Below the pieces are notes generated by a model. It saw only the letters and a list, made by a program, of their open reading frames with translations, was not told where the DNA came from and did not search any database. Positions 9,943-59,918 of a DNA stretch of 64,000 bases are shown one piece after another. The position numbers and the translations under genes are program-made. Source of the DNA: a virus; the IMG/VR virus record IMGVR_UViG_3300027573_000779, positions 1-64,000 of that record; one strand, 5' to 3'. Within the stretch, counting starts at the first letter, position 1. The number at the start of each line of letters is the position of its first letter.

Positions 9943-12135
9943 TCACAAGTATTTCGACAAAATCATATCTGTCTCAAATGGAGTCGTTTCAGCCGAAAAA
10001 ACCACGTCTGCCTTCTCTGATTTATTTACCAACTTTCCGCGACCTTCTGCGTGCATAGAAAGCAAATCAAACAGATTGGGTTTAACAAGTTTGCACATTG
10101 CCTTACAAACCAAGCTAGTACTCTTTGAATTTGCGACCGCTGCATTTACAAAGTTTGGATTAGATTTCATTGACAAGTCTAACCATACTACTTGCCGCTC
10201 TTTAACATCAATCAGTAATGGTAGAGCTACCGCTGTATCAGCCGTAATGTCAATTTTGTTTTTGACAGTTCGAGCCTCAAAAATTTCACCTGAATTGGGT
10301 TTTTTGCGACCCATCCAACCCGCAAAACATTCTGGCAAATCATGATAAGGTTGTCCAGTATAGCAACGAACACTCATTACAATATAGCGTCCGTTTTGTT
10401 CCATTACATTACTCATTGGAATGTCAATGAATTCCGCTGCTCCATTAGGGGCATTAGTAATATCCCCACTGTGAGCGCCGCCCATATCCTTGAGATTATA
10501 ATACGCAATATCAGTTATGCGTTCAAAGTCTTCGCCAAGAATGGTGGCTGTTAAATCAATATCTGTTCTGCTTTCTCCGTTTTTCCACCAAACAAAGAAG
10601 CGAATGGTGTCGTAATCCCCATCCAAAGGAATCTTGGAACCTCTTACTAGGGTCTTAAGAGCTTTGGACGCACTACGTTGTGAAAACGGAACCTTATAAT
10701 TCTTTAAAGCATCATCAAGATACACGTTACCCAAAGGCTCTAGTTCCGAAAAGCGAGCTACTAAAACATCTCGTGCTTCTTTCACCACTGAATCACAAAA
10801 AGTCTGATTTAAGGGTATAGGAGCAGTATCCAATACTTTAATTTTGGCCAAGTTCCCCTTAGGGAATACAGCATGAAAATCATTTTGATTGCGTTCTTTG
10901 AAATGAGTAAACACCTGAAGCAAAACAGGAGTAGAAACTTTTGAAGCTACGTCTGAAAAACACCCTAATAGTTTCTTGCGCTCTTTGTCACTAGACGCAA
11001 GCCTAAAGATATGGTCCAGCCTTCGGGCAAAATCTCCCGGTCTAGTCCTAAGAAGTTCTACACTCTCTTTTAAATCTCCTTCTAAAAGAGATTTTTCGAC
11101 TTTTGAGTTGAAAGTGACAATTTTGACGTTATCACGTAATTTTGAAAAAGCAGCGAAAGTTACCGGAAACTGTTTCTTATAGTCGCCGGGATGAAGAACT
11201 TCCCCAAGCCTTATCCAACGTTCATCATATTTAACCATTTCTTCGGCTAAACTTGTTTTGCAGGACTCAAGAAGTCCCAACAAAAACTTCCTTTTTCCTC
11301 TTGGAATTTTGATAAACTTGGTCGTATCCGCAAGTGACACGTCTCCTCCGCACAAAGCGGCAGCTAACCTCAATACATCCGTAGGGGTCTTTACATACTT
11401 CTCTAAGATTTTAGCAGAAGTTGTAAAAGAAATCATCCCACTCGCCACAACCGCAAGTTGTTCTTTGTGGGAAATAGTTTCTGGCAGCAAACGAACGATA
11501 TCGTTTTGATAATACGCAATAAAACTTAAAACAATCTCTTTGTCGGACGCTGAGATAGAAGATTTAGCTTGTACTAAAGAAGTAAAAATGGACTCAAAAT
11601 CATTTATGTCGCCAAGTTCAATAGTGTCAAGTTTAACAGGTTCAGCTAACGGCAACCTTTCTTTCTTCTCGTAAGTGGGAAGCCAAGTATCATCTATTAA
11701 ACCTAAATCCTTGAGCCAAAAAGTCCAGTAATGGCGAATCGCATTAGAGTAAAGCTCAAACTCGCTCATATCCATTACTTGTTGGGGGAAATTTGGATAC
11801 ATTGGCCTGAAAGCCCTATGCGCTCCCCGCATTGTCTTCAGAACAGGAACAACTTCTGCATAAAAATCAGACAGTTGAGACTCAGTCAAGCGACTAAGAG
11901 CCTTAAAAAGAGTTGGACTGATGACATAACCTAGACTTTCAAGGTTCTTATCAATGGTCCCAACAAGCAAATCATTGTCCGAGCTTCTGCCTAATGGGGG
12001 AATAACCTTTAAACGCTTCTCTAGATAGATTTGAGTTACGTTCAAAGATTGCGGCACCTTGGTAACAATCGGCACTTGAGTTTTAGTTATTGCCGCCACT
12101 GGCCGTCTGATTGTTCTTCTAGTCGTTGTTCTCAT
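9943..12135 (-). CDS. Large protein with C-terminal TerD-like domain, 730 aa
   Basis: The C-terminal part (about residues 500-690) carries TerD-superfamily signatures: FFVWWKNGESRTDIDLTATI, a YNLK...HSGDITNAP segment and ECFAGWM, as in the TerD-like ends of MXAN_6230/SCO0854-type stress proteins (from memory). The N-terminal ~480 residues are helical and unassigned. TerD domains bind Ca2+ in characterised members and occur in chemical-stress and phage-resistance (ter) loci. A vWA gene and a J-domain/kinase gene, partners typical of ter systems, lie 9-11 kb upstream. The gene has its own promoter and a 190-nt leader containing a repeated element and a short ORF. Confidence 0.75.
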   Translation of the reverse strand: MRTTTRRTIRRPVAAITKTQVPIVTKVPQSLNVTQIYLEKRLKVIPPLGRSSDNDLLVGTIDKNLESLGYVISPTLFKALSRLTESQLSDFYAEVVPVLKTMRGAHRAFRPMYPNFPQQVMDMSEFELYSNAIRHYWTFWLKDLGLIDDTWLPTYEKKERLPLAEPVKLDTIELGDINDFESIFTSLVQAKSSISASDKEIVLSFIAYYQNDIVRLLPETISHKEQLAVVASGMISFTTSAKILEKYVKTPTDVLRLAAALCGGDVSLADTTKFIKIPRGKRKFLLGLLESCKTSLAEEMVKYDERWIRLGEVLHPGDYKKQFPVTFAAFSKLRDNVKIVTFNSKVEKSLLEGDLKESVELLRTRPGDFARRLDHIFRLASSDKERKKLLGCFSDVASKVSTPVLLQVFTHFKERNQNDFHAVFPKGNLAKIKVLDTAPIPLNQTFCDSVVKEARDVLVARFSELEPLGNVYLDDALKNYKVPFSQRSASKALKTLVRGSKIPLDGDYDTIRFFVWWKNGESRTDIDLTATILGEDFERITDIAYYNLKDMGGAHSGDITNAPNGAAEFIDIPMSNVMEQNGRYIVMSVRCYTGQPYHDLPECFAGWMGRKKPNSGEIFEARTVKNKIDITADTAVALPLLIDVKERQVVWLDLSMKSNPNFVNAAVANSKSTSLVCKAMCKLVKPNLFDLLSMHAEGRGKLVNKSEKADVVFSAETTPFETDMILSKYL

Positions 12136-19413: not shown

Positions 19414-19884
19414 TTACAATTCTTTGCCATCCAACCCCACAAGAGTTGAAACCCTCTTCCAACCATACGTTTTCATCTGTTCTTCATTCATGGTGTCAAG
19501 GCTGGCTTCGGGACTAATCACAAAAATGGAAATATTCTTCTCTCGTATGGTTTTTAGATATTTTTTGACAATAATTTCAAGAGAATAAGCTGATTGTTGA
19601 GCGTATTGAGGGTCGATTCTAAGAACGACCAAGCTGTTAGGTTCAATCTCATCTATCTTGATTATCTTATCTAACTTTAGACCAATTTCAACGTCTGTCT
19701 CTTGTTTAAGCCAACGAATAAATTTATCTTGAACATCCTGTGAGACCCCTTGCCCCTTCATTAATTCTTCGACAGAAGCATATCTTCTCCCGGTAGGTTT
19801 AATTTCTTCTGGATTTTTTAAAGGATGATTATCGTTCAGAGGATTTTCACATCCTACATCGTCATCTTCTGTTGTTCGGCCCAT
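19414..19884 (-). CDS. Hypothetical protein, 156 aa
   Basis: Start set at ATG (MGRTTEDDD), 16 nt after the PurA-like stop; a TTG start would overlap that gene. The C-terminal part is alpha/beta (SLVVLRIDPQYAQQ, KNISIFVISPEASL), with VLRID and FVISP strands that could belong to a small nucleotide-binding fold. Function unknown. Last gene before the terminator. Confidence 0.6.
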   Translation of the reverse strand: MGRTTEDDDVGCENPLNDNHPLKNPEEIKPTGRRYASVEELMKGQGVSQDVQDKFIRWLKQETDVEIGLKLDKIIKIDEIEPNSLVVLRIDPQYAQQSAYSLEIIVKKYLKTIREKNISIFVISPEASLDTMNEEQMKTYGWKRVSTLVGLDGKEL

Positions 19885-19900
19885 ATAAATTCTTTCTTTA

Positions 19901-21241
19901 TTATGCTGCAACCATCTCTTTTTTCAAGTTTAAAAAAGACATCTTATCGTTTGCCATTTCCCCATAAGATTTAATACCTATAGGGACATTTAACATATCA
20001 GTAAGAATATTAGGAATTGCTTCCCCTTCTACTTTTTCCGATTCACAATTAACTTTACCGAGAGTTTTACCTAGTTCTTCCTGATTAACTAAAAATGACA
20101 TATGGGGTTTTTTAAGTTCCCAAAGTTTTCCATTTAAATTATAGCCAGTGTTAATATACCATGGATTGATTTCATTAATTCTATCACAATGAGAAACCGC
20201 CAAATAATCTACCCCACCGTTAACTTCTAGGGCATATTTTAAAAGGGGAATATCTAACATGCCCGTTCTAAATCTTCCTTGCCATGGACCAGTTGTATTA
20301 GCTGTGTCTTGTAAATTCCAAGGCATTTCAGTTGGAAAAGGTCCTGCGCCGTGTCTGGTGGCATAAATTCTAGTTACACCAATCTCAACAATGTTAGATT
20401 CTAATAACCCCAAGCCAGCTTCATTTAAAACCTTATATACGTTTTCTGTGGTTGTATTACTCCAAGTTGTGTGGGGGTGAAAACCCCATTTTTCATCTAG
20501 TAATATGCCTTGAGCGCCCTCAAAAACAGGATTATTGGAACCTTTTAGCAATTCTGAAACCTGTTGAGCGTCTATGATGTTAATTTTTTTGCTTAATTCC
20601 TGATATTCTTTAGCTATACGGTCAGTAAAACGCAAATCTCTGAAAAACTTAGCATGAGAACCTATAAAATTATAGAAATCAACCCCTTCCCTGTCTAGGC
20701 GCGAAATCATCGCCCTAAAGGTAAGCCAAAGCTTTTCATGGGTAATATCATAATTCTTAAGGTCTTTAACCCGTAAAACATTATCTCTCTTTAAACTGTC
20801 TAAAACTGTTTCTCCAATCCCCACTCCACACGAGCCATGACGATTATTGTTTCTACTCTCTTCTAACATCCTGTTAGCCGCAACATGAAATGGGGTAGTA
20901 ACCAAAGCTCGTTCATCTACATAAATTGATTCAAAGTTTCCCCCTTTGCGCCAAGTATTTGCACTTAAAACCTCTTCTTCTTTTATTAAGGATAAGGGGT
21001 TAAATAAAACGTGCTTAGTGAGTAATGTTTTAACGTTCCGATTGACTAAAGTTCCACTGCCAAACTGAGCAAAAACGTGAGAGTCGCCACTTGAAGTAAC
21101 AACTCTGTGGGCACATTGAGCGCCGCCATTATATCTGATAACTAAATCAGAATTGTTTTGACGGACAAGAAAGTCAACAACACTTCCTTTTGTTTCGTCG
21201 CCGTGTTGCAGACCCACAACTATGAAAACATTTTTGTCCAT
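19901..21241 (-). CDS. Adenylosuccinate synthetase-like protein, 446 aa
   Basis: The start is taken at MDKNVFIVVG because the in-frame extension upstream crosses an intrinsic terminator. Signatures of the PurA GTPase fold: GLQHGDETKGSVVD (P-loop region, Asp about residue 15), RYNGGAQCAHRVV (His of the GH[TN]xV motif), GHTTWSNTT-like and TRHGAGPFPTEM near 300. PurA joins IMP and aspartate to adenylosuccinate. The phage PurZ variant that makes diaminopurine precursors has lost the catalytic Asp, which is retained here. So it is a divergent PurA-like enzyme of uncertain substrate. No purine-pathway partner is seen nearby. Confidence 0.8.
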   Translation of the reverse strand: MDKNVFIVVGLQHGDETKGSVVDFLVRQNNSDLVIRYNGGAQCAHRVVTSSGDSHVFAQFGSGTLVNRNVKTLLTKHVLFNPLSLIKEEEVLSANTWRKGGNFESIYVDERALVTTPFHVAANRMLEESRNNNRHGSCGVGIGETVLDSLKRDNVLRVKDLKNYDITHEKLWLTFRAMISRLDREGVDFYNFIGSHAKFFRDLRFTDRIAKEYQELSKKINIIDAQQVSELLKGSNNPVFEGAQGILLDEKWGFHPHTTWSNTTTENVYKVLNEAGLGLLESNIVEIGVTRIYATRHGAGPFPTEMPWNLQDTANTTGPWQGRFRTGMLDIPLLKYALEVNGGVDYLAVSHCDRINEINPWYINTGYNLNGKLWELKKPHMSFLVNQEELGKTLGKVNCESEKVEGEAIPNILTDMLNVPIGIKSYGEMANDKMSFLNLKKEMVAA

Positions 21242-21248
21242 AAATTTG

Positions 21249-21290
21249 AAAAAAAGGGAGAGGAAAGGCAACCATAACCATTCCTCTCCC
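21249..21290 (-). terminator. Intrinsic terminator after the vWA gene
   Basis: Minus strand GGGAGAGGAA/TTCCTCTCCC, a perfect 10-bp stem (21256-21290 including a 15-nt loop), followed by seven T. Ends the kinase/vWA operon and shows that the PurA-like gene cannot start upstream of 21248. Confidence 0.9.
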
Positions 21291-21310: not shown

Positions 21311-22318
21311 CTAGACTAACTCTACGGAAGAAGCTTTTTTGGATTTCTCCAGTTTACCTTTTACTGTAGCAGTTTTAACAACTGCCGACGAAGGTTTATA
21401 GGCCGAAAGAGCCATACTCGCTCTGTTAATTGCGTCTTTGTCAGCACCAACATCAGCAAGGTCTTTCTTAATGTCATTGATATCATAACCTTCCTCCAAA
21501 CCAATTGTAGAAACAATCAGTTCCACAATATCTTCTGGATTTTTAAGGCGCAAAAGTCTTTGACCAAACATTTTTTTCAAAGGGTCAATAACATTTGAAT
21601 CATTGGTATGTGACGTTTCTGCTGGTATAATCCAGAAAACCTCAAATTTATCACAAAGAGCCTCAAACACTTCGTTTGTTTCAAGATTCTCTTGAAGAGT
21701 GTCACCAATCAGCGTCTTAACTTGCTTCTTATCAACCTGTTCTCTTGGCAATTCGTCGCCAGCAAAGAACAAATATCCCTTCTTGCCGCGCTTATTCACA
21801 CTGTCCAAATCAGTATGATTAGCCATAAAATACATGGCTAGCTCTGCGGATTCATAAATATGCGCACCGCCGCCCCCTTCAAGGTGAATGTGAGCTAGTA
21901 TGTCTGTGTTTTCGCTTCCTGCTTCAAATTGGCCAATTTGGAGAGGAATACTATCGCAAGTTGCGTCTCCATAAGCGCCAAAAAGAATATGAGGGTCAGC
22001 AACATACCCTTTTTTGGTAAGACTGGCCATGAGGTTGTTTAATTTTCCCACAAATTGACGGGGAACACTTGACATTGAGCCGGTTACATCAAAAATAACA
22101 GCAATTGGGAGACTGTTTGGATGAGCGTCACTGTCAAATGACTCACGAATGTTTTTCCCTACCTTGTTAACTTTTGAGGGGTTAAGAAGGTCATGAACCT
22201 TCGAATCAACCGCACCAGAAGCAATATCTGCCGAATATTTAAAATAGTCAGCGCCAGTCCTGCGACAGGTGTCTAAACGGTCAGTATGATAACTATAATC
22301 GTAACTTGAGCTTCCCAT
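21311..22318 (-). CDS. vWA-domain protein with MIDAS motif, 335 aa
   Basis: Residues 70-280 form a von Willebrand factor A domain: FDVTGSMSS gives MIDAS residues Asp77, Thr79 and Ser81, with GGGGAHIYESAELA as a second metal-site segment and FFAGDELP later. The short N-terminus (Tyr/Ser-rich) is unassigned and the Lys-rich tail is disordered. vWA proteins of this kind act with kinases and TerD-type proteins in ter-like stress systems. The gene directly follows the J-domain/kinase gene and has its own promoter (22353-22380) as well as read-through; a terminator follows. Confidence 0.85.
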   Translation of the reverse strand: MGSSSYDYSYHTDRLDTCRRTGADYFKYSADIASGAVDSKVHDLLNPSKVNKVGKNIRESFDSDAHPNSLPIAVIFDVTGSMSSVPRQFVGKLNNLMASLTKKGYVADPHILFGAYGDATCDSIPLQIGQFEAGSENTDILAHIHLEGGGGAHIYESAELAMYFMANHTDLDSVNKRGKKGYLFFAGDELPREQVDKKQVKTLIGDTLQENLETNEVFEALCDKFEVFWIIPAETSHTNDSNVIDPLKKMFGQRLLRLKNPEDIVELIVSTIGLEEGYDINDIKKDLADVGADKDAINRASMALSAYKPSSAVVKTATVKGKLEKSKKASSVELV

Positions 22319-22352
22319 AAATGTTTTGGTTTGTGAATTATCGTCAATCCCA

Positions 22353-22380
22353 ATCCTACCAAGACTTTTTTAAATGTCAA
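22353..22380 (-). promoter_or_regulatory. Internal promoter for the vWA gene (16-bp spacer class)
   Basis: TTGACA (22375-22380, overlapping the stop of the kinase gene), spacer TTTAAAAAAGTCTTGG (16 bp, extended -10 TG), TAGGAT (22353-22358). The leader to the ATG is about 30 nt, unlike the leaderless cases. Confidence 0.78.
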
Positions 22381-23417
22381 CTCCGGTTCCAAACAAACTT
22401 TCTGAATTTTTTCGGTCCAAAAAGAGCAATCAAAATAGCCTGAAAATCACGATAAAATTCTGTAATGTTTTGTATACGATGAAGATGACTTAGTTGTGCC
22501 GCCTTCATCAAATCCTTAATCGCAGTTGGTAACTTATTGTTGGTCAAATAGTTAAGAATTTTGGACGCCATGTAAATGTCAAACCCAAAATTCAATTCTT
22601 TTTTGTCTTTATATTCAGGGGGATAAAAATCTTTATATTTAGGAACAATTGCTTTTAATTTTGTGCCCTTTTTTCCAGAATAACACCAATCGATAAGCAA
22701 ACCTTCGTGAGTTTCGGGAATTACAAGAACATGAGAAGGAATGATTGCGCCGTGAACATAACCGGAATCATGAGCAGCAATAAGAGCGGATAAAAGTCTA
22801 TTAAACATCCAAGCAGCGTCCCTAACATCAATACCGTCTGGATAGACCCTTTTAATTTCTTCTAAGGAAACGAACTTTGGATTGTAAGGAAAAACATTAG
22901 CCCTTTTAGTGCCGCCATCTTTAATATCTATCCCAAAGAAAGGTTTTAGTATTAACTTAACAATACTGTGCGCTGCAACAGGAGATTTGTAAATTCCATT
23001 TAAAGTATCTAGTTCGGTTTTAAGGAAGACGTTGTGTTTTGGGTCCCGAGACACCTTAACCATAACTTCCTCAGAATTAAAATGGCCCCTATACAAATCG
23101 CAGATGTCCCCATCAGCAAAAATCCCACCAATATCAATATTACCCTTACTAGAAATAATAGTAACGCCGCGACCATCAGTTTCGCGTTTTCCATAAGAAC
23201 CACTCTTAAATTTACACTCAGCTTCCTCTAAAAACTTATTTAATAATATCAGAGCCTCGTGAGCTAAATTCTTATCTGAACATAAATCAGGGTGAGTTTT
23301 TTTTACCCAGTCTCGATAAATTCCTTTTAAATCGCCACTGGTAATATCCCCAAAAATGTCTTCGGCGCAAGTAGCGCTTTGAAGCTGTTTTAAATGCTTT
23401 TTAACGGAAGCAGACAT
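22377..23417 (-). CDS. J-domain fused to protein-kinase-like domain, 346 aa
   Basis: Residues 15-75 are a J domain with intact HPD (42-44). Residues about 95-300 follow a protein-kinase plan: glycine-rich region near 98, VMVKVS with Lys121, AAHDSGYVHGAIIPSHVLV (catalytic-loop position, HGA instead of HRD) and LIDWCYS (DFG position, DW). The loop lacks the catalytic Asp of HRD, so it may be a pseudokinase or a divergent kinase. The J domain would recruit host Hsp70. It overlaps the upstream 70-aa gene by 17 nt and precedes the vWA gene, forming a kinase-vWA unit like TerY-type modules. Confidence 0.82.
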   Translation of the reverse strand: MSASVKKHLKQLQSATCAEDIFGDITSGDLKGIYRDWVKKTHPDLCSDKNLAHEALILLNKFLEEAECKFKSGSYGKRETDGRGVTIISSKGNIDIGGIFADGDICDLYRGHFNSEEVMVKVSRDPKHNVFLKTELDTLNGIYKSPVAAHSIVKLILKPFFGIDIKDGGTKRANVFPYNPKFVSLEEIKRVYPDGIDVRDAAWMFNRLLSALIAAHDSGYVHGAIIPSHVLVIPETHEGLLIDWCYSGKKGTKLKAIVPKYKDFYPPEYKDKKELNFGFDIYMASKILNYLTNNKLPTAIKDLMKAAQLSHLHRIQNITEFYRDFQAILIALFGPKKFRKFVWNRS

Positions 23418-23613
23418 TAATTTTTTCCATAATAACAGGACATATCAAATTGATATCCTGAGTCGAAAAAAAACTTGGAAATAAGTCTCTAATTTCTTTG
23501 CGTATGTTAGTATCAACGGTATCATCTAAATTGAAATAAATTTCATCTAAAACCTTTTCGTCTAAAATAGAACTAATCCGTTCCCAAACATAATAATAAG
23601 GACTATGTTTCAT
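23401..23613 (-). CDS. Small paralogous protein, 70 aa
   Basis: Aligns with the gene immediately upstream (MKxSPxxYVW, I.SILDEKVLD, LFPxxFS). Acidic helical protein, family unknown. Overlaps both neighbours, so it is translationally coupled to the J-domain/kinase gene and may be its partner or substrate. Confidence 0.65.
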   Translation of the reverse strand: MKHSPYYYVWERISSILDEKVLDEIYFNLDDTVDTNIRKEIRDLFPSFFSTQDINLICPVIMEKINVCFR

Positions 23614-23827
23614 TTTCTAAAATATGAATTTCTTCCCTAAGATAAGAATCCATTGAATCGGCATCATCACTCGAAAAATAATCTGGAAACAAGTTGCTAA
23701 TTTTTTTATGAATATCATCATTAACAATATCGATATCGTCCGAGTCAAAAAACTGTCTATCTAAAACCTTTTCGTCTAAAATAGAAGCAATCTGTCCCCA
23801 AACATAAAAAATAGGACTACGTTTCAT
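23603..23827 (-). CDS. Small paralogous protein, 74 aa
   Basis: Paralogue of the downstream 70-aa protein (shared MK.SP..YVW and SILDEKVLD). It ends HILENET, nearly the same as the end of the upstream 69-aa protein (EILENET), which may reflect duplicated 3' DNA containing the next start. Function unknown. Confidence 0.65.
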   Translation of the reverse strand: MKRSPIFYVWGQIASILDEKVLDRQFFDSDDIDIVNDDIHKKISNLFPDYFSSDDADSMDSYLREEIHILENET

Positions 23828-24026
23828 TTTCTAAAATTTCTATCATACAAACACAAACGTCTAATTGGTTCGACCGGTAATCTGTTCCAAAAAACTTTTC
23901 TAAAAACAATAATTTGGTTTCCTCACAAACCGTCTTTCTTACTTTATTTAGAATATGTTCTCTGTTTTGTCCAATTATAACACTACAACAAGAACGAAGC
24001 TGATTGGAAACCTGCTCGCTGTCCAT
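23817..24026 (-). CDS. Small Cys-containing protein, 69 aa; first gene of the kinase/vWA operon
   Basis: Helical, with Cys pairs (SCCSV, CVCM); ends EILENET like the next protein. The ATG is 6 nt after the -10 of a class promoter, so it should be translated from a leaderless mRNA. No family recognised. Confidence 0.62.
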   Translation of the reverse strand: MDSEQVSNQLRSCCSVIIGQNREHILNKVRKTVCEETKLLFLEKFFGTDYRSNQLDVCVCMIEILENET

Positions 24027-24032
24027 TTAAGC

Positions 24033-24060
24033 ATGATAAACGGTCTTTTTAAAATGTCAA
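24033..24060 (-). promoter_or_regulatory. Promoter of the kinase/vWA operon (16-bp spacer class)
   Basis: TTGACA (24055-24060), spacer TTTTAAAAAGACCGTT (16 bp; lacks the extended -10 TG), TATCAT (24033-24038), ATG 6 nt later. Confidence 0.82.
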
Positions 24061-24107: not shown

Positions 24108-24296
24108 CTACGAAAGTGACCTAATATCATAAATATCAACATCTTGCAACAAACCGTCGCCTCTTTTTATAAGAAAAGTTTCGACATCCTTCACCTTCAC
24201 AATTTCTCCTGTCCAATTGCCATCTTTAGACACAACCAGAACGGTCTTGTTTAACATTTTTTCGTTTGCCAACAATTTATCAGCTAAGTTTTGCAT
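24108..24296 (-). CDS. Hypothetical protein, 62 aa
   Basis: Beta-rich C-terminus (TVLVVSKDGNWTGEIVKVKDV) like a small SH3-type barrel. Starts 1 nt after the upstream stop. Function unknown; last gene of the tight cluster that begins far upstream. Confidence 0.55.
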   Translation of the reverse strand: MQNLADKLLANEKMLNKTVLVVSKDGNWTGEIVKVKDVETFLIKRGDGLLQDVDIYDIRSLS

Positions 24297-24297
24297 T

Positions 24298-24507
24298 TTA
24301 CAACAGGTCTTTTAGGTCGTTTTTGTTCAGAAACAAGTAATCAATAGTAAATACACTTCCGCTTTTGATTTGAGCGACACAAAGACAAGGATAAGCCGGG
24401 GGTCTGATTTCTTTTTGCTTGGTGTGGGGGGCCAACTCAAAGAAAGCCTCCATCAAACGAAGCAGGACGTTCCAATCCTTTTTATCTTTAAGAATTTTAT
24501 AAATCAT
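24298..24507 (-). CDS. Hypothetical protein, 69 aa
   Basis: Basic helical start and a CLCVAQ beta segment; no family recognised. Two-nt gap to the methylase-like gene upstream and 1 nt to the next gene, so operonic. Confidence 0.55.
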   Translation of the reverse strand: MIYKILKDKKDWNVLLRLMEAFFELAPHTKQKEIRPPAYPCLCVAQIKSGSVFTIDYLFLNKNDLKDLL

Positions 24508-25484: not shown

Positions 25485-25697
25485 TTATTTCTTTTTAAAT
25501 TTAAAAATTATTTTGTCACCATATTTTTCTTCCAGCGCCCCAATCAAAACACAGGGGCCACAAATCGCTCCCTCAAAAATCAACTGTAATATATCTCCTA
25601 TTGTTATATCTTGCTTTCTAAAATAGAAAATCAATCCAAAACCAATCCAGCCACTTAAAAGATAACTGGCTATTAAAACAATTAACAATATTGTCAT
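25485..25697 (-). CDS. Small two-TM protein, paralogue family member 1 (70 aa)
   Basis: Two hydrophobic segments (about 3-27 and 42-58) with the shared signature DITIGDIL...GP...DKIIFKxKKK. Related to the three genes at 27879-28560. Basic C-terminal KKK tail. Function unknown. 4-nt overlap with the upstream gene. Confidence 0.68.
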   Translation of the reverse strand: MTILLIVLIASYLLSGWIGFGLIFYFRKQDITIGDILQLIFEGAICGPCVLIGALEEKYGDKIIFKFKKK

Positions 25698-25948
25698 TTT
25701 TCCACCATTTCCTTAATTTGCTCTACTAGCATAGCAACATCTTCATGTTGCCAATTATAATCTAGTTTTCTGTCCGTTCGCTTAATTAACCCTAAAATAG
25801 ACTTAACTGCGGCATTCCATCCCTTTAAAGCCATTATTTCATCCCTGTTAGTTTTCTCGTTCCAATGAGAATCACCTATAAAAACTTTGTCCCAAAATTT
25901 ATCAAACTGAGTTTCTTTGTCCCAAAATTTATCAAACTGAGTTTTCAT
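25694..25948 (-). CDS. Hypothetical protein with internal 10-residue duplication, 84 aa
   Basis: The N-terminus reads TQFDKFWDK twice because of a perfect 30-bp tandem duplication (25885-25944). The rest is helical, with no recognised family. ATGA overlaps on both sides. Confidence 0.6.
   Translation of the reverse strand: MKTQFDKFWDKETQFDKFWDKVFIGDSHWNEKTNRDEIMALKGWNAAVKSILGLIKRTDRKLDYNWQHEDVAMLVEQIKEMVEK
25885..25944. repeat. Perfect 30-bp tandem duplication inside a coding region
   Basis: 25885-25914 and 25915-25944 are identical; the unit is a multiple of three, so the frame is kept. Looks like a very recent slippage or recombination event, or a length-variable N-terminus. Confidence 0.95.
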
Positions 25949-26325
25949 GGTATTAAATCTGGAGTTTCAAAAACATTACCAACTACAGTTACATCTCTAA
26001 CAAAAGACATTCCAGAAAAATTCCAACCACAATGTCTATCTATATCACCGTCATATTCTCCAAACATAACTTCAAAAGTTCTTTTATGACTATTTGAATA
26101 AAATTCTACTAAATCCCCCTCGTAAATATCAACTCCATTTTTATCTTTTAAGCCTGTAAATTGTTGAAAAATAAGGTGTTCTGGAATATCAACGACTTCT
26201 GGCAACTCGCGTCTCTTATAATTAACCACCTTGCCTTCCAAATTAAGGAACATCGCGGCATGTTTATAAATAAATTCCTTTTGCCCTTTGTCCCAAATTC
26301 TAAATTTAAACACTCTAGTTTTCAT
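25945..26325 (-). CDS. YopX family phage protein, 126 aa
   Basis: Classic YopX layout: KFRIWDK at the start, QFTGLKDKNGVDIYEGDLVEF in the middle, and VVGNVFETPDLI at the end. YopX proteins are common in phages and prophages; function unknown. Confidence 0.85.
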   Translation of the reverse strand: MKTRVFKFRIWDKGQKEFIYKHAAMFLNLEGKVVNYKRRELPEVVDIPEHLIFQQFTGLKDKNGVDIYEGDLVEFYSNSHKRTFEVMFGEYDGDIDRHCGWNFSGMSFVRDVTVVGNVFETPDLIP

Positions 26326-26626
26326 GATTGCCCTCTAACCATTCAACAATGACATCTCCGTGACAACTCAATGGCTTACAGTAACAGCCAAGCCTCTTTC
26401 CTCGTAAGCTTTTAACCATAGCCGCAAAACTTGGATTCTTAACTTGGTCCAAAAACCAACCTTTATATTTTTCAATAGCCTCTTCTCTCGTCGCAACTTT
26501 ATATACAGCTAGGCTATTGTCTAAATGAGAATATGGATTCCCAAATGGAGACCCGCGCCCAATAAATTCGTCATATGCTTCCACCCTTTTGTTGACAACA
26601 AGAGTTTTATTAAGTCTTGTTTCCAT
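26315..26626 (-). CDS. DUF4326 protein, 103 aa
   Basis: IGRGSPFGNPYSH, TREEAIEKYKGWF and LRGKRLGCYCKPLSCHGDVI match DUF4326. The CYCKP..CHGD cluster suggests metal binding or a thiol chemistry site. Function unknown. Overlaps both neighbours by 11-17 nt. Confidence 0.85.
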   Translation of the reverse strand: METRLNKTLVVNKRVEAYDEFIGRGSPFGNPYSHLDNSLAVYKVATREEAIEKYKGWFLDQVKNPSFAAMVKSLRGKRLGCYCKPLSCHGDVIVEWLEGNHEN

Positions 26627-27228: not shown

Positions 27229-27882
27229 TTATAATTGATGAAGAAGTCCTCCGGGTCTTTGTTGCCCCTTTATAGTCTTCATGATTTGTTTATCTATCAT
27301 ATCACCAAGAAGAAGCTCTTTTGCTTTTCTTTTTAAATATTTTCTTCTTTGTTTTGTCGCTTCATACAATACTATACCCGTAGAAGTGCCTAAATTCAAG
27401 CTTTCAATTATCCCACACATGGGAATATTAATGCAACACTCACTGTTATCTATTGCGGCCTGACTAACACCCTGACTTTCGTTGCCGAACCAAATTGCCA
27501 GTTTCTTATGAGTGTAATCCCCTTCCTCTAAAATAACATTCTTTTTACCCTTAAGGTGTGGAGAGGTCACCATTGATACAAACCCTTTACTATTAAGATA
27601 TTTTATACATGAATCGGTGTCGGGATAACACTTAACAAAAGCCCATTTAATAGCAGAAACAGAAATTTTGTTTAAAGAGCCTGTTTCTCTCATTGTCTGC
27701 CAATATGCAGGTAAAAGTCTATACCCATCAACGACATATAGTTTTTGAACTCCTAGAGCGTCAATGTTACGGACCACTGAGCCGATGTTTTCAATCGTCT
27801 TGGGATTTTCCAAAACGGCAATTAAGTTCTTACAGCGTAATTGCTTTGCTCTATCAGCTTTCAGACGAAGATTGGTCTTCAT
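27229..27882 (-). CDS. SpoU/TrmH-type RNA 2'-O-methyltransferase, 217 aa
   Basis: The three SPOUT motifs are present: NPKTIENIGSVVRNIDALG (motif 1), LAIWFGNESQGVS (motif 2) and INIPMCGIIESLNLGTSTGIVLYE (motif 3, read in parts), forming the trefoil-knot SAM site. Closest in layout to TrmH, which methylates G18 of tRNA, consistent with the tRNA-handling genes here. C-terminal basic helix (KQRRKYLKRKAKE). Confidence 0.87.
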   Translation of the reverse strand: MKTNLRLKADRAKQLRCKNLIAVLENPKTIENIGSVVRNIDALGVQKLYVVDGYRLLPAYWQTMRETGSLNKISVSAIKWAFVKCYPDTDSCIKYLNSKGFVSMVTSPHLKGKKNVILEEGDYTHKKLAIWFGNESQGVSQAAIDNSECCINIPMCGIIESLNLGTSTGIVLYEATKQRRKYLKRKAKELLLGDMIDKQIMKTIKGQQRPGGLLHQL

Positions 27883-28097
27883 TTCTTTTTTCCTTTTAAA
27901 ATCACCTTGCTACCGTATCTTTCGAACAAAAACTGCACAAAAGGAATTAAGAGTATCGGCCCCAAAAATCCAGCGAAAAACCCTCCAAATAATTCCTCAA
28001 GTAGAAGGTCTTCTCCATCTAAGTAATGAAGATAAGTGAAGAAAACAATAAGCGCCCAACCACATAAAACCCACCCAATAATAATGTAAAATATCAT
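27879..28097 (-). CDS. Small two-TM protein, paralogue family member 2 (72 aa)
   Basis: Two TM segments, GWxxxGWxLIVF start, GPILLIPF, and a C-terminal YGSKVILKGKKK tail as in the other members. Overlaps the TrmH-type gene by 4 nt and ends 1 nt after the next member's start region, so these are in a tandem array. Confidence 0.68.
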   Translation of the reverse strand: MIFYIIIGWVLCGWALIVFFTYLHYLDGEDLLLEELFGGFFAGFLGPILLIPFVQFLFERYGSKVILKGKKK

Positions 28098-28316
28098 TTA
28101 TTTTTTTCTCCGAAAAATTACTTTGTCATCCAGTCTTATTGACAAACTCATAAATAGAATAATAACCGCAAACGGCCCCATAAAAGAAAACCCACAGGCA
28201 ATCAAAATATCGCCAAGAGTTATTTCGTCGTTTTCCAAGTATTCGGATGCGACTATCAAAGCACAACCTATGCTGCACCAAACAAACACAACAAATATAA
28301 TACCAAGAGTTGCCAT
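28098..28316 (-). CDS. Small two-TM protein, paralogue family member 3 (72 aa)
   Basis: Shares SIGCALIV, DEITLGDIL, GPFAVII and DDKVIFRRKK with the family. Directly abuts member 2. Function unknown. Confidence 0.68.
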   Translation of the reverse strand: MATLGIIFVVFVWCSIGCALIVASEYLENDEITLGDILIACGFSFMGPFAVIILFMSLSIRLDDKVIFRRKK

Positions 28317-28338: not shown

Positions 28339-28560
28339 TTAGTCGTTGTTTTGCTTTTTTCCTTTAATTATAACTATGTCATCCTCTTCAATTAAGAAGA
28401 ACGCAAGCCAAACCACTAAAACAATAGGACCTAAAACACCGAACAATAAACTATTAATTATTTTTTGTAATGTTATATCAAAACCCTGTATATAATCTTT
28501 ATAAATAAATAAAACTAAAGGAATCCAACCTACTAAGAACCATCCTATAACGTATATCAT
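28339..28560 (-). CDS. Small two-TM protein, paralogue family member 4 (73 aa)
   Basis: GWFLVGWIPLVLF, FDITLQKII, GPIVLVVW and DDIVIIKGKK give the family pattern. First of the three-gene tandem array in the direction of transcription. Confidence 0.68.
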   Translation of the reverse strand: MIYVIGWFLVGWIPLVLFIYKDYIQGFDITLQKIINSLLFGVLGPIVLVVWLAFFLIEEDDIVIIKGKKQNND

Positions 28561-28775: not shown

Positions 28776-29869
28776 ACCGCGACCTCTCCTTTTATAGCTG
28801 GATGTGGGTCGTAGCCCTCTAACCTAATATCCTCATACTTGAAATCAAAAAGGTCTCGCTTATCGGGGTTGAGCCATAAGCGGGGTAAAGGTTTAGGCTC
28901 GCGGCTTAGTTGCTCATTTACCTGCTCTTTATGATTCTCATAAATATGCAAATCTCCATAGGTATGAATGAAAGTTCCCGGCTGCATATTAACACAATGG
29001 GCGACCATTGCTAATAGGAGACTATAAGATGTGATGTTGAATGGCACGCCTAGGAAAGTATCACAGCTTCTTTGATAGAGTAGAAGATTAAGACGGCGAC
29101 TTGGAACACCCATTCTATTTAAAGCCTCTTCTTGCTCTTGAATAGTATGGTAACCTACTTGGCCCCACGAGCCTTCTTTTTGTTTGTAAGTGGGGTTTTT
29201 AAAAGATAGCTCAAATCTTTCGTCGTGTGTTAGTTCCTCAGTATGAAACTGAAACAAGCAATGGCACGGCGGCAGCGCACATTTCTCGACCCAATAAGGA
29301 TGCCATGCACTTACTATCATGCGGCGGTCATCGGGGTTAGTCTTGAGTTTGTCGAGGACTTTCTGGAGTTGGTCTACCTCTCCCTTCAGTCCTTGTTCAA
29401 CACAATTCTCATAAAAATATGGAAATGCTCGCCACATCCCACCATAAGTTCCTTCGCCTAATTCTCCATGCTCGGCAGCAAATTTTTCGTCATTCTTTAT
29501 TCTCTCTAAGAACTTATCCATAGATAAAGCTCTTCCGTGTTCGTCGCCATCCCATTTAAAAATACCAGTAAGAGTTGGAAACTTTTCAGCATACCTCTTA
29601 TAGGGCCAAGAATTCCAAATATGAACGTCATTATCCACCAAATACTTAATGTTGGTATCTCCCCGTATGAACCATAACAGTTCGTGAACAACGCCTTTAA
29701 ACCACACCTTCTTAGTTGTTAATATAGGAAACTCCTCAAAACTAACAGGAAACTTCGCCTGCTCCCCAAACACTCCTACAGTATTTATCCCCGTCCGGTT
29801 CTTCTTAACCGTTCCCTTTTCCAGAATAGTATTTAAAAGTCTAAAATATTCCTTGTCAGTATTATTCAT
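28772..29869 (-). CDS. thyA: Thymidylate synthase (ThyA)
   Basis: 365 aa, longer than the ~264-aa bacterial enzyme because of inserts in the middle. Visible motifs: RTGINTVGVFG near the N-terminus, WHELLWFIRGDTN-type region (VHELLWFIRGDTN), catalytic Cys in CALPPCHCLFQFH, RSCDTFLGVPFNITSYSLL and FIHTYGDLHIYENH. Converts dUMP to dTMP with methylene-THF; dCMP deaminase and dUTPase encoded upstream would supply dUMP. Overlaps the Thg1-like gene by 8 nt. Confidence 0.95.
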   Translation of the reverse strand: MNNTDKEYFRLLNTILEKGTVKKNRTGINTVGVFGEQAKFPVSFEEFPILTTKKVWFKGVVHELLWFIRGDTNIKYLVDNDVHIWNSWPYKRYAEKFPTLTGIFKWDGDEHGRALSMDKFLERIKNDEKFAAEHGELGEGTYGGMWRAFPYFYENCVEQGLKGEVDQLQKVLDKLKTNPDDRRMIVSAWHPYWVEKCALPPCHCLFQFHTEELTHDERFELSFKNPTYKQKEGSWGQVGYHTIQEQEEALNRMGVPSRRLNLLLYQRSCDTFLGVPFNITSYSLLLAMVAHCVNMQPGTFIHTYGDLHIYENHKEQVNEQLSREPKPLPRLWLNPDKRDLFDFKYEDIRLEGYDPHPAIKGEVAV

Positions 29870-30608
29870 ATTCTGGAATCATCGTAAGTAATTGTTCGTT
29901 TTTTTTAAAATCCCAAGCGCCTTTGGCGACTAATTGTCCTCTTTCATCTTCCGCGCCCGAAAATTCCCTATAAACAATTCGGCCATTTTTTTGACCGTCA
30001 CTTAAATCTCTTGCCCAATTAATACCTATTTCATGTAACATTTCGTGCATATCTGATTGACTTTTCTTATGTAATTGATTAGGTAAAAAATAATATTGTG
30101 CCAACATTGAAATTGAATTTCTAACACAGTCCTGCTGCCGCCACCTAAAATAGTTCATCACTTCAATCCGGTCAGGAATGGTAAAGACGCGACAATCAAA
30201 ATATGCTTGAGTTTGGTCATACCACTGATTTTTTTCATTAAACTGTCTATAAATTCTTCGTTTGTTAAACTCTGCGGTCATTATACTAGCCGCCACAGAA
30301 GTTATCTTTTGTATATTTCCATCAAACCAAGCACAAGAATCGATATTTTCAAAATCAGTCACCAAAATACTTATTTCGTCTGACTGATTATAAGCAAAAA
30401 CCACACCCTGAATATTAGGAAATAAAGCTAATGTAGCCTCATCCAAATCATTCATTAGCCCGTTATCAAAAGGTTTCAGTAACCCTCTGGTATAGGTATG
30501 AAAAGCTTTCCCATCTAAACGAAGGATAGTATAAGTGCGCCGAGGAAGACTGTAACGAGTTCTGTCTTCGTACTGCTCCTTCATCCTTTGACCGAACAAA
30601 TCATTCAT
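29862..30608 (-). CDS. Thg1-like tRNA guanylyltransferase family protein, 248 aa
   Basis: RLDGKAFHTYTRG (about 30-42) and FAYNQSDEISIL (about 71-82) supply the palm-domain metal-binding Asp residues; WFDGNIQKITSVAAS follows as in Thg1. Thg1-like proteins add nucleotides in the 3'-5' direction, repairing tRNA 5' ends. With RNA ligase, TrmH-type enzyme and many tRNAs, this supports a phage tRNA-maintenance set. Phage Thg1-like genes are known near thyA. Confidence 0.87.
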   Translation of the reverse strand: MNDLFGQRMKEQYEDRTRYSLPRRTYTILRLDGKAFHTYTRGLLKPFDNGLMNDLDEATLALFPNIQGVVFAYNQSDEISILVTDFENIDSCAWFDGNIQKITSVAASIMTAEFNKRRIYRQFNEKNQWYDQTQAYFDCRVFTIPDRIEVMNYFRWRQQDCVRNSISMLAQYYFLPNQLHKKSQSDMHEMLHEIGINWARDLSDGQKNGRIVYREFSGAEDERGQLVAKGAWDFKKNEQLLTMIPEYE

Positions 30609-31387: not shown

Positions 31388-31417
31388 ATGGTATTAAGCA
31401 TTTGGGTTAAAATGCAA
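31388..31417 (-). promoter_or_regulatory. Promoter for the DUF3820-ThyA stretch
   Basis: TTGCAT (31412-31417), 18-bp spacer, TACCAT (31388-31393); ATG 6 nt later. The -10 is the same hexamer as at 34747. It overlaps the 3' end of the PcfJ-like gene. Confidence 0.5.
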
Positions 31418-32849
31418 GCGCTAAATCATTATCCCGTAGAGGTTCTTCAATAAAGACCATTGATTCTCTTATTTTATCAAGGCGAGACTTAATAATTTTA
31501 AACTCCTCTAAAACGCCCAAAACTTTCCCTTTATCAACTTCGTCTGACCGCTGATTGCGAGCGGCAAAAAACTGATAGACTTCACTGTTATTAATCTCTA
31601 TGTTATATGTTAACTGCCCGTCTTTTAAAACCCCAAGTAATCTCGAATGTCCGCCAGTAACTCTACTTCCATAACCCCCAATACAATTATGCATAATGGC
31701 CCCCCATTCCTTAAGCTCAAAACTGGTTTTGGGGACTACAATCTGTAAGTTATCTATTTTATATCCATCAATCTTCTCATATTTTTTATCTTTAATGATT
31801 CCAAGCTCGAAATCCTCTTCTTTTGTATACCCTCTGCCCCATTGTTGATTTAAGTGAGTGTGTAGCTCGTCATGAATTTGTGAAAAGCTTCTTGGACGCT
31901 CAGGTAACGTAAAGCCTTGTAAACGCTCTGGACTAACAAAATAATAAACAGTATCAACAAGCATCGCATAAAAAACATCGCACTCTAAAAGACTCTTTAA
32001 TAAAAGTTTCCTGCGGTCTACATTGTAATGTCTTAAAACGCGCCTAAAAGCCATAATAGACTTGGAAATTTGGCTGTTAAAATGAATTTTTTTATGAACG
32101 TGAGTTTTTAAACATCCAAGAATAAAATCAAATGAAACCAATCCTCTTGTAGCCGCGCCAAACTGAAGTTTTTCAACAAGGGCTTGATTAACTGTTTCAC
32201 TTTCAAAAAGAGGATAAATCTCTTTTGATATCTGTTTGCCCGAATTACCAAAAATATCCTCTAAAACATCTTTAAAAGTTTCATTGCGCCCAAGATATTT
32301 AGTAATACTTCCATTTAAATTTGGACACCATTGTAAATCTAAACCCCGAAAACACGGATAAGATGCCTTAAGACAATTGATATAAGGATTTTTATTAAAT
32401 TTAAATTTGATGCCGTTTCTTTTTAAAAAATTTTTTAAAATTTTATTGAAGCGCCACTCAAAAACATTTTTTCCTATATCTGATTTCTTTGATTTCTCTC
32501 CATCATGAACTGTAAATAAAGTGCTAGCCCAAAAATAAAAAGACTGTGGCGAATGAGAATGATTACGAAATCTATCACTTGCTGCAAAATATATCCTCAG
32601 TTTCCCATTCTTTACTTTAAAAATATAACGCTCTAAGTTCTTTACTTTAAAGGGTTGTTTGTCTTGTGAAGCTTGAAACTTAAAAACATTTAAATTGGTG
32701 CCAAAATCATAAAGAAAGATATATTTGGGCATCCTCCTAAATCGTTTTGTTTGTTTATCAAAATAACTCCGCTTAAGTAAAGTATAACGAACTCCCTTTT
32801 CTTTTTGAACAACATACTTAGGGTTGTCAAGTTTGATAGGCTCAATCAT
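31407..32849 (-). CDS. PcfJ-like protein, 480 aa
   Basis: The C-terminal part (about 375-455) carries the PcfJ signature: LKEWGAIMHNCIGGYGSRV, then YNIEINN, then VYQFFAARNQRSD. The N-terminal 350 residues are basic and unassigned. PcfJ-like proteins occur in phages and conjugative plasmids; function not established. Begins 6 nt after the GGQ-protein gene. Confidence 0.8.
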   Translation of the reverse strand: MIEPIKLDNPKYVVQKEKGVRYTLLKRSYFDKQTKRFRRMPKYIFLYDFGTNLNVFKFQASQDKQPFKVKNLERYIFKVKNGKLRIYFAASDRFRNHSHSPQSFYFWASTLFTVHDGEKSKKSDIGKNVFEWRFNKILKNFLKRNGIKFKFNKNPYINCLKASYPCFRGLDLQWCPNLNGSITKYLGRNETFKDVLEDIFGNSGKQISKEIYPLFESETVNQALVEKLQFGAATRGLVSFDFILGCLKTHVHKKIHFNSQISKSIMAFRRVLRHYNVDRRKLLLKSLLECDVFYAMLVDTVYYFVSPERLQGFTLPERPRSFSQIHDELHTHLNQQWGRGYTKEEDFELGIIKDKKYEKIDGYKIDNLQIVVPKTSFELKEWGAIMHNCIGGYGSRVTGGHSRLLGVLKDGQLTYNIEINNSEVYQFFAARNQRSDEVDKGKVLGVLEEFKIIKSRLDKIRESMVFIEEPLRDNDLALAF

Positions 32850-40572: not shown

Positions 40573-43500
40573 ATGACAAAAACTTTAACTCAGGACGCTA
40601 CCTCTATTAATTTTGAACAGGAAATTTCAAACTATATTTTTGTTAGTCGTTACAGTAGATTTAATGAAAAGTTAGGGAGAAGAGAAACATGGGATGAGGC
40701 AGTTAGTAGGTTGGAAACCATGCACTTAAAGAAATTTAATTATCTTTCAAAGGAGGATAAGGATGAAATTAAGTGGGCGTTTGATATGGTTAGAGCAAAA
40801 CGGGTCGTTCCTTCGATGCGAAGTTTACAGTTCGGAGGCAAAGCAATTGAAGCTCATCAAGCTAGAATTTTCAACTGTAGTGTTCGGCATGTAGATTCTA
40901 TTCGTTCTTTTGCTGAGATAATGTATCTTTTGCTTTGTGGATGCGGGGTAGGTATTGGAGTAAGCAGGTTTTTTCTTCGTCGCTTGCCTGATTTGGTAGA
41001 TGCTAAAGATAAAACTGGAACAGTTGTCACTTATAGTATTGAGGATAGTATGGAGGGGTGGGCTGATTCAGTTGAAGCTCTTTTGATGTGTTATTTTAAG
41101 AATACTCCCTATACAGGTAGGAAGATTTGTTTTGATTATTCTAAAATTAGAAAAAAAGGAACGCCTCTTAAGACTGGAGGAGGTAAAGCTCCGGGTTACA
41201 AAGGCTTAAAAAACACTCATCTGAAAATTAAAGCTCTTCTTGACCATATTATTGAAAATAAAAAACAACTTCGACTTAAATCTATTGATGCTTATGATAT
41301 TTTAATGCATTGTGCCGACGCCGTTCTTTCAGGGGGAATTAGACGCTCAGCTACTTCGGTTATTTTTGATGAAGACGACGAAGATATGATGAATGCTAAA
41401 ACCTCATTTAAAGTAACTAAAAAAAGTGGGTTTGAAGAAGATGGGACCTCTGTTGTTGGTGGAAAGACCTATCAGTTATACAACGGCAAAGTTACTGTTG
41501 ATGGCCTAACCTATTATGTCACTTTGAAAGAATATGAATACGAACAGCTTAAGAAAAGCGGAACAATTAGCTGGATGCATATTCAACCCCAAAGAGCAAG
41601 GTCTAACAATAGCATTTTACTTCTAAGGGATAAAATAACGTATGAGAAGTTCAATGAGATGGTACAAAGAACCCGTCAATGGGGAGAACCGGGATTTGTA
41701 TTTGCTAATCATCCTTGGACCCTACTGAACCCCTGTTTTGAGATAGGGTTTATTCCTATTACCGACGATGGAGTTTGCGGCACCCAGTTTTGTAACCTCA
41801 CTTCTATCAACGGGAAAAAGATTACCTCTTTTCAAGACTTTAAAGAATGTGGCAAGGCAGCTTCATTAATAGGAACACTCCAAGCGGCTTATACTTACTT
41901 CTCTTATCTTTCACAAGCAGCACAGGAAGTAAGCGAGCAAGAAAGTTTATTGGGCGTAAGCCTAACAGGATGGATGGATTCTCCGTCCGTTCTCTTAAAT
42001 GAGGAAAATCAAAGAAAGGTAAGTTCTCTCGTGGTAGAAACAAACAGGATTTGGGCTAAGAAAATTGGCGTAAATCAGGCAGCAAGAACAACATGCGTAA
42101 AACCCGAGGGTTGCGTTTCAGCCGATACTTTAATTTTATCTAATGAAGGTATTTTATATTTAGATGAGGTTGGGGATATTAATGGTAAAGAATGGCAAAA
42201 TCATCAAATAAATATTAGTTCTGCGTTAGATATTAAAGCATCAGATAAATTTTTTGTTAATGGACGCAAAAACGTATTAAAAATTAAATTTAACAGTGGA
42301 TTTGAATTTACTGGAACCCTCAATCATAAAGTTCAAGTTGTCAATAGTCACGGAATAGAATGGAAACAGCTTGATAATTTACAAAAAGGGGATGCTGTTG
42401 TTTACAGAATTGGTGGATACGATAGTGCTTTTGGGTCTTATCAAAAGCTCAAGAAGCCCTCATTTGTATTACATAAAAACTCTCATAACACACAAGAAAT
42501 AATATGCCCCCCTATCTTAGACGAAGAACTTGCTTGGTTCCTCGGTCTTTATTTAGGAGACGGTTCGAATCACGAGAAAGGGATACGTATTTCAGGCAAC
42601 CGAAAAGATGTGTCAGATTTAGATAAAGCGAATAAGATAGTTAATAAATATTTTGGCATATCTTTTACTACTAGTAATTATCAAAAAGATGAATTAGATA
42701 ATAGAATTCAATATTATTTCAATTCAATACAATTGCTTAAGTTTTTGGAAGAGAATGGCCTTTTGAAACCTAAATCTCAAGACATTGAAATCCCTAAGAT
42801 TGTTCGTCAGTCTCCTAAATCTGTAATTGAATTTTATTTAGATGGGTATGCAGCAGCAGATGGATGTGATGAGAGTCGAACTAGGAGTTACCATACTGTT
42901 TCTGAGAAGATGGCAAAGCAACTACCAATAGTTTTAAGAGCTATAGGAAAAGATTGTAAAGTTCGCAAATATAAGCCTTCCAAAGGGTCGTTCGGCACAA
43001 ATGAAAAATATTGGATACAAGAACGAAAGAGCTTAAATGGTAATATAAACAGGAATAGCCGTTTAGATAAAAAAATATACAATATATTAAAGGCAAGCGG
43101 CTACAGTAGCCATTTATATGATGTGGTTGACAATGTTGTTTATGGGGCGAATGAGCCAACCTATGATATTTCGGTTCCAGACGAACATGCCTATATTGCT
43201 AATAGCTTTGTTTCCCACAACACATCATCTTTAGTCCTAGGCACTGCCTCAGGCATTCACCCACATCATTCTAGAAGATATTTCAGAAGAGTTCAATGTA
43301 ACACAGAAGACAATGTGTATAGACACTTTAAAAAGACCAATCCCAAACTTTGTGAGCCTTCAGTATGGTCCGCCAATAAAACAGACGATGTAATTACTTT
43401 TCCAGTCACGGTTTCTGATGAAGCAATGGTTAAAAGTGACCTTTCTGCTATTGAACATTTGGAAATTATCAAATCTGTTCAAAAAAATTGGGTAATTAAC

Positions 43501-46435: not shown

Positions 46436-46436
46436 T

Positions 46437-50277: not shown

Positions 50278-50279
50278 AA

Positions 50280-57192: not shown

Positions 57193-57193
57193 A

Positions 57194-59916: not shown

Positions 59917-59918
59917 TT

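Follow-up and report, generated by a model that had tools for sequence, protein, structure and literature searches.

Background

Several described systems resemble parts of a three-gene module, here called K, V and P, which we examined on the minus strand of a 64 kb window comprising the first 64 kb of the 208,933-base virus record IMGVR_UViG_3300027573_000779. K encodes a J domain joined to a protein-kinase fold, V a vWA-fold protein with a metal-ion-dependent adhesion site (MIDAS), and P a paralogue of adenylosuccinate synthetase (ADSS). The TerY-P triad (vWA, PP2C and a Ser/Thr kinase-zinc ribbon protein) likewise has a vWA gene beside a kinase-fold gene, but K has no zinc ribbon, has no catalytic aspartate in any of 110 distinct sequences and carries a J domain, and its constant partner is an ADSS paralogue. 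In MoxR-vWA pairs (PMC7159879; PMC7824862), a MIDAS vWA protein is thought to present the client to an ATP-driven chaperone, whereas here the motor would be the Hsp70 of the host, reached through the J domain. No MoxR AAA+ protein was recognised among the recurrent neighbours of the module or the scanned open reading frames (ORFs) of the window, in searches not aimed at MoxR. The NrtR-regulated vWA systems centred on ADP-ribosylglycohydrolase (ARG), whose hosts include Actinobacteria and Planctomycetes (Iyer et al. 2022, PMC9503650), share an NrtR-type regulator and a vWA protein with the module. Their described core consists instead of ARG and phosphatases, and section 3.8 of that paper names neither a J-pseudokinase nor an ADSS.

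P is a member of the ADSS family, like PurA and PurZ, and has their P-loop, D13 and H41, but its aspartate loop is shortened and has lost its arginines, and it falls under the score cut-offs of both curated enzymes. The closest gene arrangement is that of the Bixzunaviruses (mycobacteriophage cluster C), where for instance Ewok genes 260, 261 and 263 encode a kinase, a hypothetical protein and a PurA-like protein in the identical order. The Bixzunavirus proteins are ~30% (K), ~36% (V) and ~37% (P) identical to those of the window. They differ in that the genes are annotated singly, with V as 'hypothetical protein', in an 88-aa gene between V and P, and in a 254-aa intein-like insert in some of the V genes. 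K resembles the chimera DNAJB1-PRKACA (PDB 4wb7), an active-kinase fusion from a human tumour, in architecture only. The annotated genes of Kutterviruses include an ADSS and a VWA protein (PMC10892097); among the matches listed by tblastn with two V proteins, none bears the name of a Salmonella phage or of any other phage of enterobacteria.

The PHROGs database already holds the K, V and P families, separately. In the open-licence literature of PubMed Central (PMC), covered mainly at the level of search results and with subscription papers outside, no paper was recognised that joins ADSS with vWA, a J domain or NrtR, and within this scope the K-V-P combination appears to be undescribed. The parts are known folds, and no known system was found that joins all three.

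Conservation and distribution of the module

A sequence-only reading of the locus had described a phage operon of five genes (three encoding small proteins, followed by K and V) at 21311-24060. All five are present in the ORF list, on the minus strand and within that interval, but the interval ends one gene early and omits the third member of the conserved module. K (22377..23417) encodes 346 aa and V (21311..22318) 335 aa, and they are followed by P (19901..21241), which encodes 446 aa when read from the ATG at 21241.

The module was traced through loci retrieved with V: 88 phage loci from 83 records (five represented twice), five plasmid loci, and 80 genome loci that are the best 80 of at least 557 V relatives in one-per-species genomes and as such a non-random sample. 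A gene was counted as present when it lay within the retrieved locus, which includes a K 5.6 kb off in phage locus L028 and some phage P genes separated from V by over 500 bases. Where GC content is high, neighbours were counted from mechanically called ORFs, and most negative gaps are due to over-long starts. On this basis P is found in 81 of the 88 phage loci and K in 44; both occur in all five plasmid loci; and of the 80 genome loci, 75 contain P and 68 contain K. All five genomes whose V locus lacks a nearby P encode P, at contig edges or elsewhere.

A less biased picture comes from 394 Actinomycetes genomes, drawn evenly. V was found in 41 of these and P in exactly the same 41, whereas K was found in 40 of them and nowhere else; in the lone genome without K, V has two in-frame stops. 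V and P share a contig in 40 of the 41 genomes and are at most 254 bases apart. In the 30 V loci that were examined, K adjoins in 29 and P in 29, and the misses (L211, L215) are cuts at contig ends. A chance figure for V-P co-occurrence would overstate the evidence, because the Actinomycetes genomes are mutually related. The distance matrices of the three proteins over 106 loci agree closely (V-K 0.92, V-P 0.92, K-P 0.94; permutation maximum 0.26), values to which the caution about kinship among genomes applies as well. The K-V-P module itself is solid. V and P form its core, K is their usual 5' partner, and the slot before V holds K, a protein of ~120 aa, or neither.

The K-V pairing, for which the sequence-only reading had suggested a neighbourhood search, is conserved far beyond this phage. 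Its remark that the combination is unusual in a phage did not survive: K is encoded by 191 phage records and V by 208, and ~190 sequenced mycobacteriophages carry the module, with V annotated as 'hypothetical'. A tree of 61 V sequences (38 phage, 23 bacterial) needs three label changes. A phage sequence adjoins each of its Chloroflexota, Planctomycetota and Actinomycetota clades, and the V of the window falls together with those of phages L002 and L008. Several phage-bacteria exchanges of V are implied by this topology, which has an arbitrary root and so gives them no direction.

Many bacterial operons begin with a gene of the NrtR family, which was found in 66 of the 80 genome loci. The member in L096 matches the NrtR winged helix (PF21906, 5.8e-14) and NUDIX (PF00293, 2.3e-10). 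In all 59 genome loci that also have K, NrtR lies on the same strand, often with a four-base overlap with K. A strict nudix box is kept in 23 of 68 NrtR sequences, in line with a non-cleaving sensor. NrtR stands directly before V in one phage locus, L028, and none was found in the window. NrtR is a repressor released by ADP-ribose (PMC6800001; PMC9503650), and NrtR-vWA systems have been proposed to counter ADP-ribosylation (PMC9503650). Among the same-strand neighbour families listed, none that is clearly distinct from K, V, P and NrtR exceeds 17 of the 80 genome loci, in counts that included no search aimed at PP2C. A DUF4326 gene lies near the module in the window (26315-26626, minus strand) and in L002 (7134-7433), and this domain has been tied to ADP-ribose chemistry (PMC9503650). 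Furthermore, a HIRAN gene directly precedes V in a Rhizobium phage, and a NadM-like gene lies close by.

K, a J domain on a pseudokinase scaffold

The motifs on which the sequence-only reading had based its J domain/kinase fusion were all found in K: HPD at residues 42-44, HGA at 222-224 and DW at 243. The J domain spans residues ~1-70 and the kinase fold ~85-345. Taken as a single sequence, the K of the window scores 14.6 bits against the Pfam J domain, under the cut-off of 27.8, and it is placed in phrog_3043 'kinase' with 1.5e-37. A profile built from 12 relatives matched SRPK in the PDB with 1.2e-13, as well as StkP and CK2, and the J domain of DnaJ with 6.7e-10. The AlphaFold2 (AF2) model has a mean predicted local distance difference test (pLDDT) score of 92.3. 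Its best aligned kinase in the PDB is PknB (Z 24.6, root mean square deviation (rmsd) 2.0 over 223 residues), and its top Foldseek match is the J-PKAc chimera (DNAJB1-PRKACA, 4wb7), which also joins a J domain to a kinase fold. These structure searches are dominated by the commonest fold in each model and barely probed the J domain or the N-terminal extension of V. Profile matches, model confidence and the PknB alignment together back the kinase fold. No Pfam zinc ribbon was found in K, and the model stops at the kinase C-lobe.

The HPD of the J domain is kept in 96 of the 110 distinct K sequences. Residues typical of kinases are also common, with the beta3 lysine and the alphaC glutamate in 104 of 110 each and the DFG-type aspartate in 86, but the catalytic aspartate of the HRD type is found in none. 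Because this aspartate is absent from all 110 sequences despite the kinase fold, K is a pseudokinase, and the feature conserved in K is therefore a J domain with a pseudokinase as its scaffold. No Hsp70 gene was found in the virus record that holds the window, so that the DnaK involved would be that of the host. Given the conserved HPD and this lack of a phage Hsp70, it is plausible that K may act on host Hsp70.

P, a paralogue without the aspartate-loop residues

P matches the ADSS family (PF00709) with 4.7e-62 and is assigned to phrog_1211. It reaches 162.4 and 170.4 bits against the curated PurA models, whose cut-offs are 395.55 and 402. An identity as the PurZ enzyme of 2-aminoadenine synthesis was considered and rejected, with 61.3 of the 300 bits required by NCBIfam NF038379, on the score of P itself and with no search made for companion genes of Z-phages. 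Database labels include '2-aminooxy adenylosuccinate synthetase'.

Residues were compared across 154 distinct P sequences and six canonical PurA controls (the PurA locus L178, which gave no usable translation, was left out), in E. coli PurA numbering. D13, K16, H41 and Q224 are kept in all 154, T239 in 153 and D333 in 151. N38 is found in only three (151 have glutamine), T129 in five and R131 in two, and V273, T300, T301, R303, R305 and K331 are each absent from all 154. The loop residues T300, T301, R303 and R305, which have a role in aspartate binding in PurA, are present in all six controls. The R303-bearing loop of P has lost one residue in 153 sequences and two in the remaining one. Judged by these residues, the phosphoryl step from GTP to the purine looks intact and the aspartate site gone. 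Since the arginines of the aspartate loop are missing in all 154, P is unlikely to make adenylosuccinate.

A separate housekeeping PurA was found in all eight operon-bearing genomes checked. It gives one match of ~560-610 bits in seven, and in G007 it is broken up over two other contigs. P, the copy in the operon, scores ~190-210 bits in seven of the eight genomes and is in two pieces in G006.

V, a MIDAS vWA protein

V had no Pfam match, and its profile no match to a PDB sequence; it is placed in phrog_2971 with 7e-62. As the sequence-only reading had held, V is a MIDAS vWA protein: it contains D77-x-T79-x-S81, and its AF2 model (pLDDT 91.5) matches an integrin beta-I/vWA domain with Z 15.4 and rmsd 3.2 over 194 residues, preceded by an N-terminal extension. 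The MIDAS set is conserved in 164 sequences, with D77 in 163, T79 and S81 in 162 each, and D118 and D188 in all. Q127, E132, E156 and E189 are invariant as well (164/164).

In mycobacteriophage CharlieB (L006:4001-5782), V is split by a 254-residue insert annotated as HNH endonuclease. The insert begins with cysteine, ends with asparagine before cysteine and lies directly before the strand with the last MIDAS aspartate, so that it appears to be intein-like and placed at the metal site. In other Bixzunaviruses V was matched as two pieces over a similar span.

Proposed role and alternative explanations

The reading that we tentatively prefer, and which could well be wrong, is that K and V are a co-chaperone pair controlling an altered ADSS enzyme. 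Like ADSS, P would spend GTP on activating a purine nucleotide at its 6-oxygen, and would then couple the activated purine to a partner other than aspartate. K and V would be dedicated to the control of P: the MIDAS of V may serve to dock the client, which is the task of the vWA protein in MoxR-vWA enzyme activases, and K could stand in for the AAA+ motor, with the J domain recruiting host DnaK and the pseudokinase part sensing nucleotides or offering a platform for binding. Expression would be coupled to ADP-ribose/NAD status by NrtR in bacteria, and phages may carry the module to run the nucleotide chemistry of P during infection. We infer this mechanism, both the coupling by P and the action of K and V on P with host Hsp70. 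The full version, in which a GTP-using, ADSS-fold, non-aspartate ligase, an Hsp70-powered vWA activase and, in bacteria, an NrtR/ADP-ribose switch make up a nucleotide-conjugating pathway that has moved between phages and bacteria of three or more phyla, is rather doubtful.

A number of observations weigh against the co-chaperone reading. K is absent from 44 of the 88 phage loci and 12 of the 80 genome loci and is thus dispensable, which speaks against an obligatory Hsp70 step. The 12 genomes without K at the locus had no clear K elsewhere, and five had low-scoring generic kinases. A family of ~120 aa is found before V, nearly always directly, in 32 of the 44 phage loci that lack K and in none of the 44 that have it. 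One member, L036, matched nothing in Pfam or PHROGs, nor anything in named phages. Hsp70 recruitment is therefore not essential everywhere, because this domainless protein replaces K in those 32 loci. Furthermore, 14 of 110 K sequences either lack the HPD or have it misaligned, other catalytic activities are possible in pseudokinases, and V and P lie at distant loci in some Planctomycetes. The roles assigned to the ADSS residues are those known from E. coli PurA and would have to hold for P as well.

The beta3 lysine, the alphaC glutamate and often the DFG-type aspartate retained in K would also suit a signalling switch of the TerY-P kind, where the kinase-like domain transfers AMP, or else phosphate in some atypical way, and modifies P or a host target together with V as adaptor. 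Adjacency of kinase and vWA genes is a TerY-P theme (PMC11090510). Such a switch is unlikely, as the catalytic aspartate is absent throughout, V-P persists without K, and the recurrent neighbours showed no phosphatase, though no search was aimed at phosphatases. The Ter/TerY-type interpretation offered by the sequence-only reading is not borne out either, the constant third gene being an ADSS paralogue and not a phosphatase. The frequent NrtR, including that of phage locus L028, could instead reflect a conflict over NAD or ADP-ribose: the module would respond to ADP-ribose from infection or stress and make or remove a nucleotide signal, in phages as counter-defence or against superinfection. 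DUF4326 near the module, the HIRAN and NadM-like genes, the patchy presence (41 of 394 Actinomycetes genomes) and the proposal that NrtR-vWA systems act against ADP-ribosylation (PMC9503650) all fit this speculation. It is nevertheless improbable given the strong conservation in place of rapid change and the lack of any effector family recurring beside the module in most loci. A known defence system was rejected as an identity, V and P matching no PADLOC model and K giving only weak matches to generic kinase-type ones.

Taken at their labels, the database entries suggest ordinary nucleotide metabolism, with P making extra adenylosuccinate or PurZ-type 2-aminoadenine and K and V helping virion assembly. 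The fold family and catalytic residues of P agree with this, and a role as assembly chaperones has been proposed both for J domains of jumbo phages and for MoxR-vWA pairs (PMC7824862). Both halves are hard to maintain and the explanation is quite improbable: P scores far under the PurA and PurZ cut-offs and lacks the aspartate-loop residues, and the operon also occurs on bacterial chromosomes and plasmids, where there is no virion to build. Least credible is the proposal of the sequence-only reading, that the operon, small paralogues included, blocks a host stress or defence pathway via Hsp70. The conserved HPD and the overlapping small genes ahead of K are in its favour, but the small genes are not conserved, the operon is also maintained in the chromosomes of bacteria, and the V-P core is independent of K.

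Transcription signals and neighbouring genes

The gene ends overlap from the first small gene through to K, and K and V are separated by 58 bases. The small genes, all on the minus strand, encode proteins of 69 aa (23817..24026), 74 aa (23603..23827) and 70 aa (23401..23613, overlapping the start of K). The 74- and 70-aa proteins are paralogues, as had been proposed (E 1e-20, 46% identical across 69 residues); an 8-residue tail is all that the 69-aa protein has in common with them. None of the three had relatives in loci L001-L172. By this comparison the genes are lineage-specific and outside the conserved module, and their supposed coupling to the J-kinase unit falls away.

A promoter was predicted upstream of the small genes, and a TTGACA-16-TATCAT site matching 11 of 12 positions is present there (24033..24060, minus strand). 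As a class such sites are not above chance, with 19 found against 16.4 (standard deviation 4.1) in shuffled sequence. A weak, possible internal promoter (TTGACA-16-TAGGAT, with TG before the -10) lies between K and V at 22353..22380, minus strand. The predicted terminator after V was recovered as a minus-strand hairpin in the V-P interval at 21256..21290 (z -2.17), with a run of seven T behind it at 21249-21255; it is absent from the output of a pattern scan restricted to loops of 3-8. The likely start of P, ATG 21241, lies 14 bases past the hairpin, the mechanical ORF starting at TTG 21310, and no Shine-Dalgarno-like motif was seen by eye between the two. The hairpin may be a candidate for termination or attenuation.

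A 165-aa ORF directly 3' of P (19414..19911, minus strand) has a relative only in L002/L007, one contig (E 2.6e-10). Two minus-strand ORFs upstream of the small genes, of 62 aa (24108..24296) and 69 aa (24298..24507), have relatives in L002 directly after P (E 4.6e-12) and directly before K (E 2.3e-8), respectively. A DUF2828/DUF7788 protein, vWA-/Ro60-like by eye, is encoded downstream of P in the sister phage (L002:12366-13838), and in a Vibrio phage P is followed by a gene annotated 'RNA-binding protein' of similar size (L005:12329-13837).

The TerD-domain gene reported near by corresponds to a 730-aa ORF (9943-12135, minus strand) that belongs to the MXAN_6230/SCO0854 RING family, with a score of 409 bits against a cut-off of 600. 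Its C-terminal part is a divergent TerD-like domain by profile-profile comparison alone (91.4% probability, E 9e-7; N-terminal part 1.0%); Pfam TerD had no match in this ORF or elsewhere in the virus record. The domain is thus supported, but the gene lies more than 9 kb away. Relatives of the ORF occur on 24 viral contigs, none of them among the contigs of the V scan, and a Ter link of the module was rejected.

Elsewhere in the window, a 1084-aa ribonucleotide-reductase-like ORF (40573-43827, plus strand) contains, by eye, an intein (cysteine at its start, His-Asn before threonine at its end). Inspection by eye also suggested a Thg1-like gene of the tRNA-His guanylyltransferase type (29862-30608, minus), a secreted subtilisin-like protease with C-terminal domains (179-2848, minus) and a long series of glycosyltransferase-, epimerase-, aminotransferase- and methyltransferase-like ORFs (45560-61022, plus), perhaps for glycan or virion decoration. 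Small, similar membrane-protein ORFs at 25485-25697, 27879-28097, 28098-28316 and 28339-28560 (minus) are perhaps paralogues. A PcfJ-like protein (31407-32849, minus; 5.3e-15) and a YopX-like protein (25945-26325, minus; 1.5e-17) are also encoded.

Implications

The module is common, with at least 557 V relatives in one-per-species genomes in addition to the ~190 sequenced mycobacteriophages. If the co-chaperone reading is true, it would provide a function for several unannotated gene families, and would amount to a new purine-nucleotide reaction together with a new kind of enzyme-activating chaperone.

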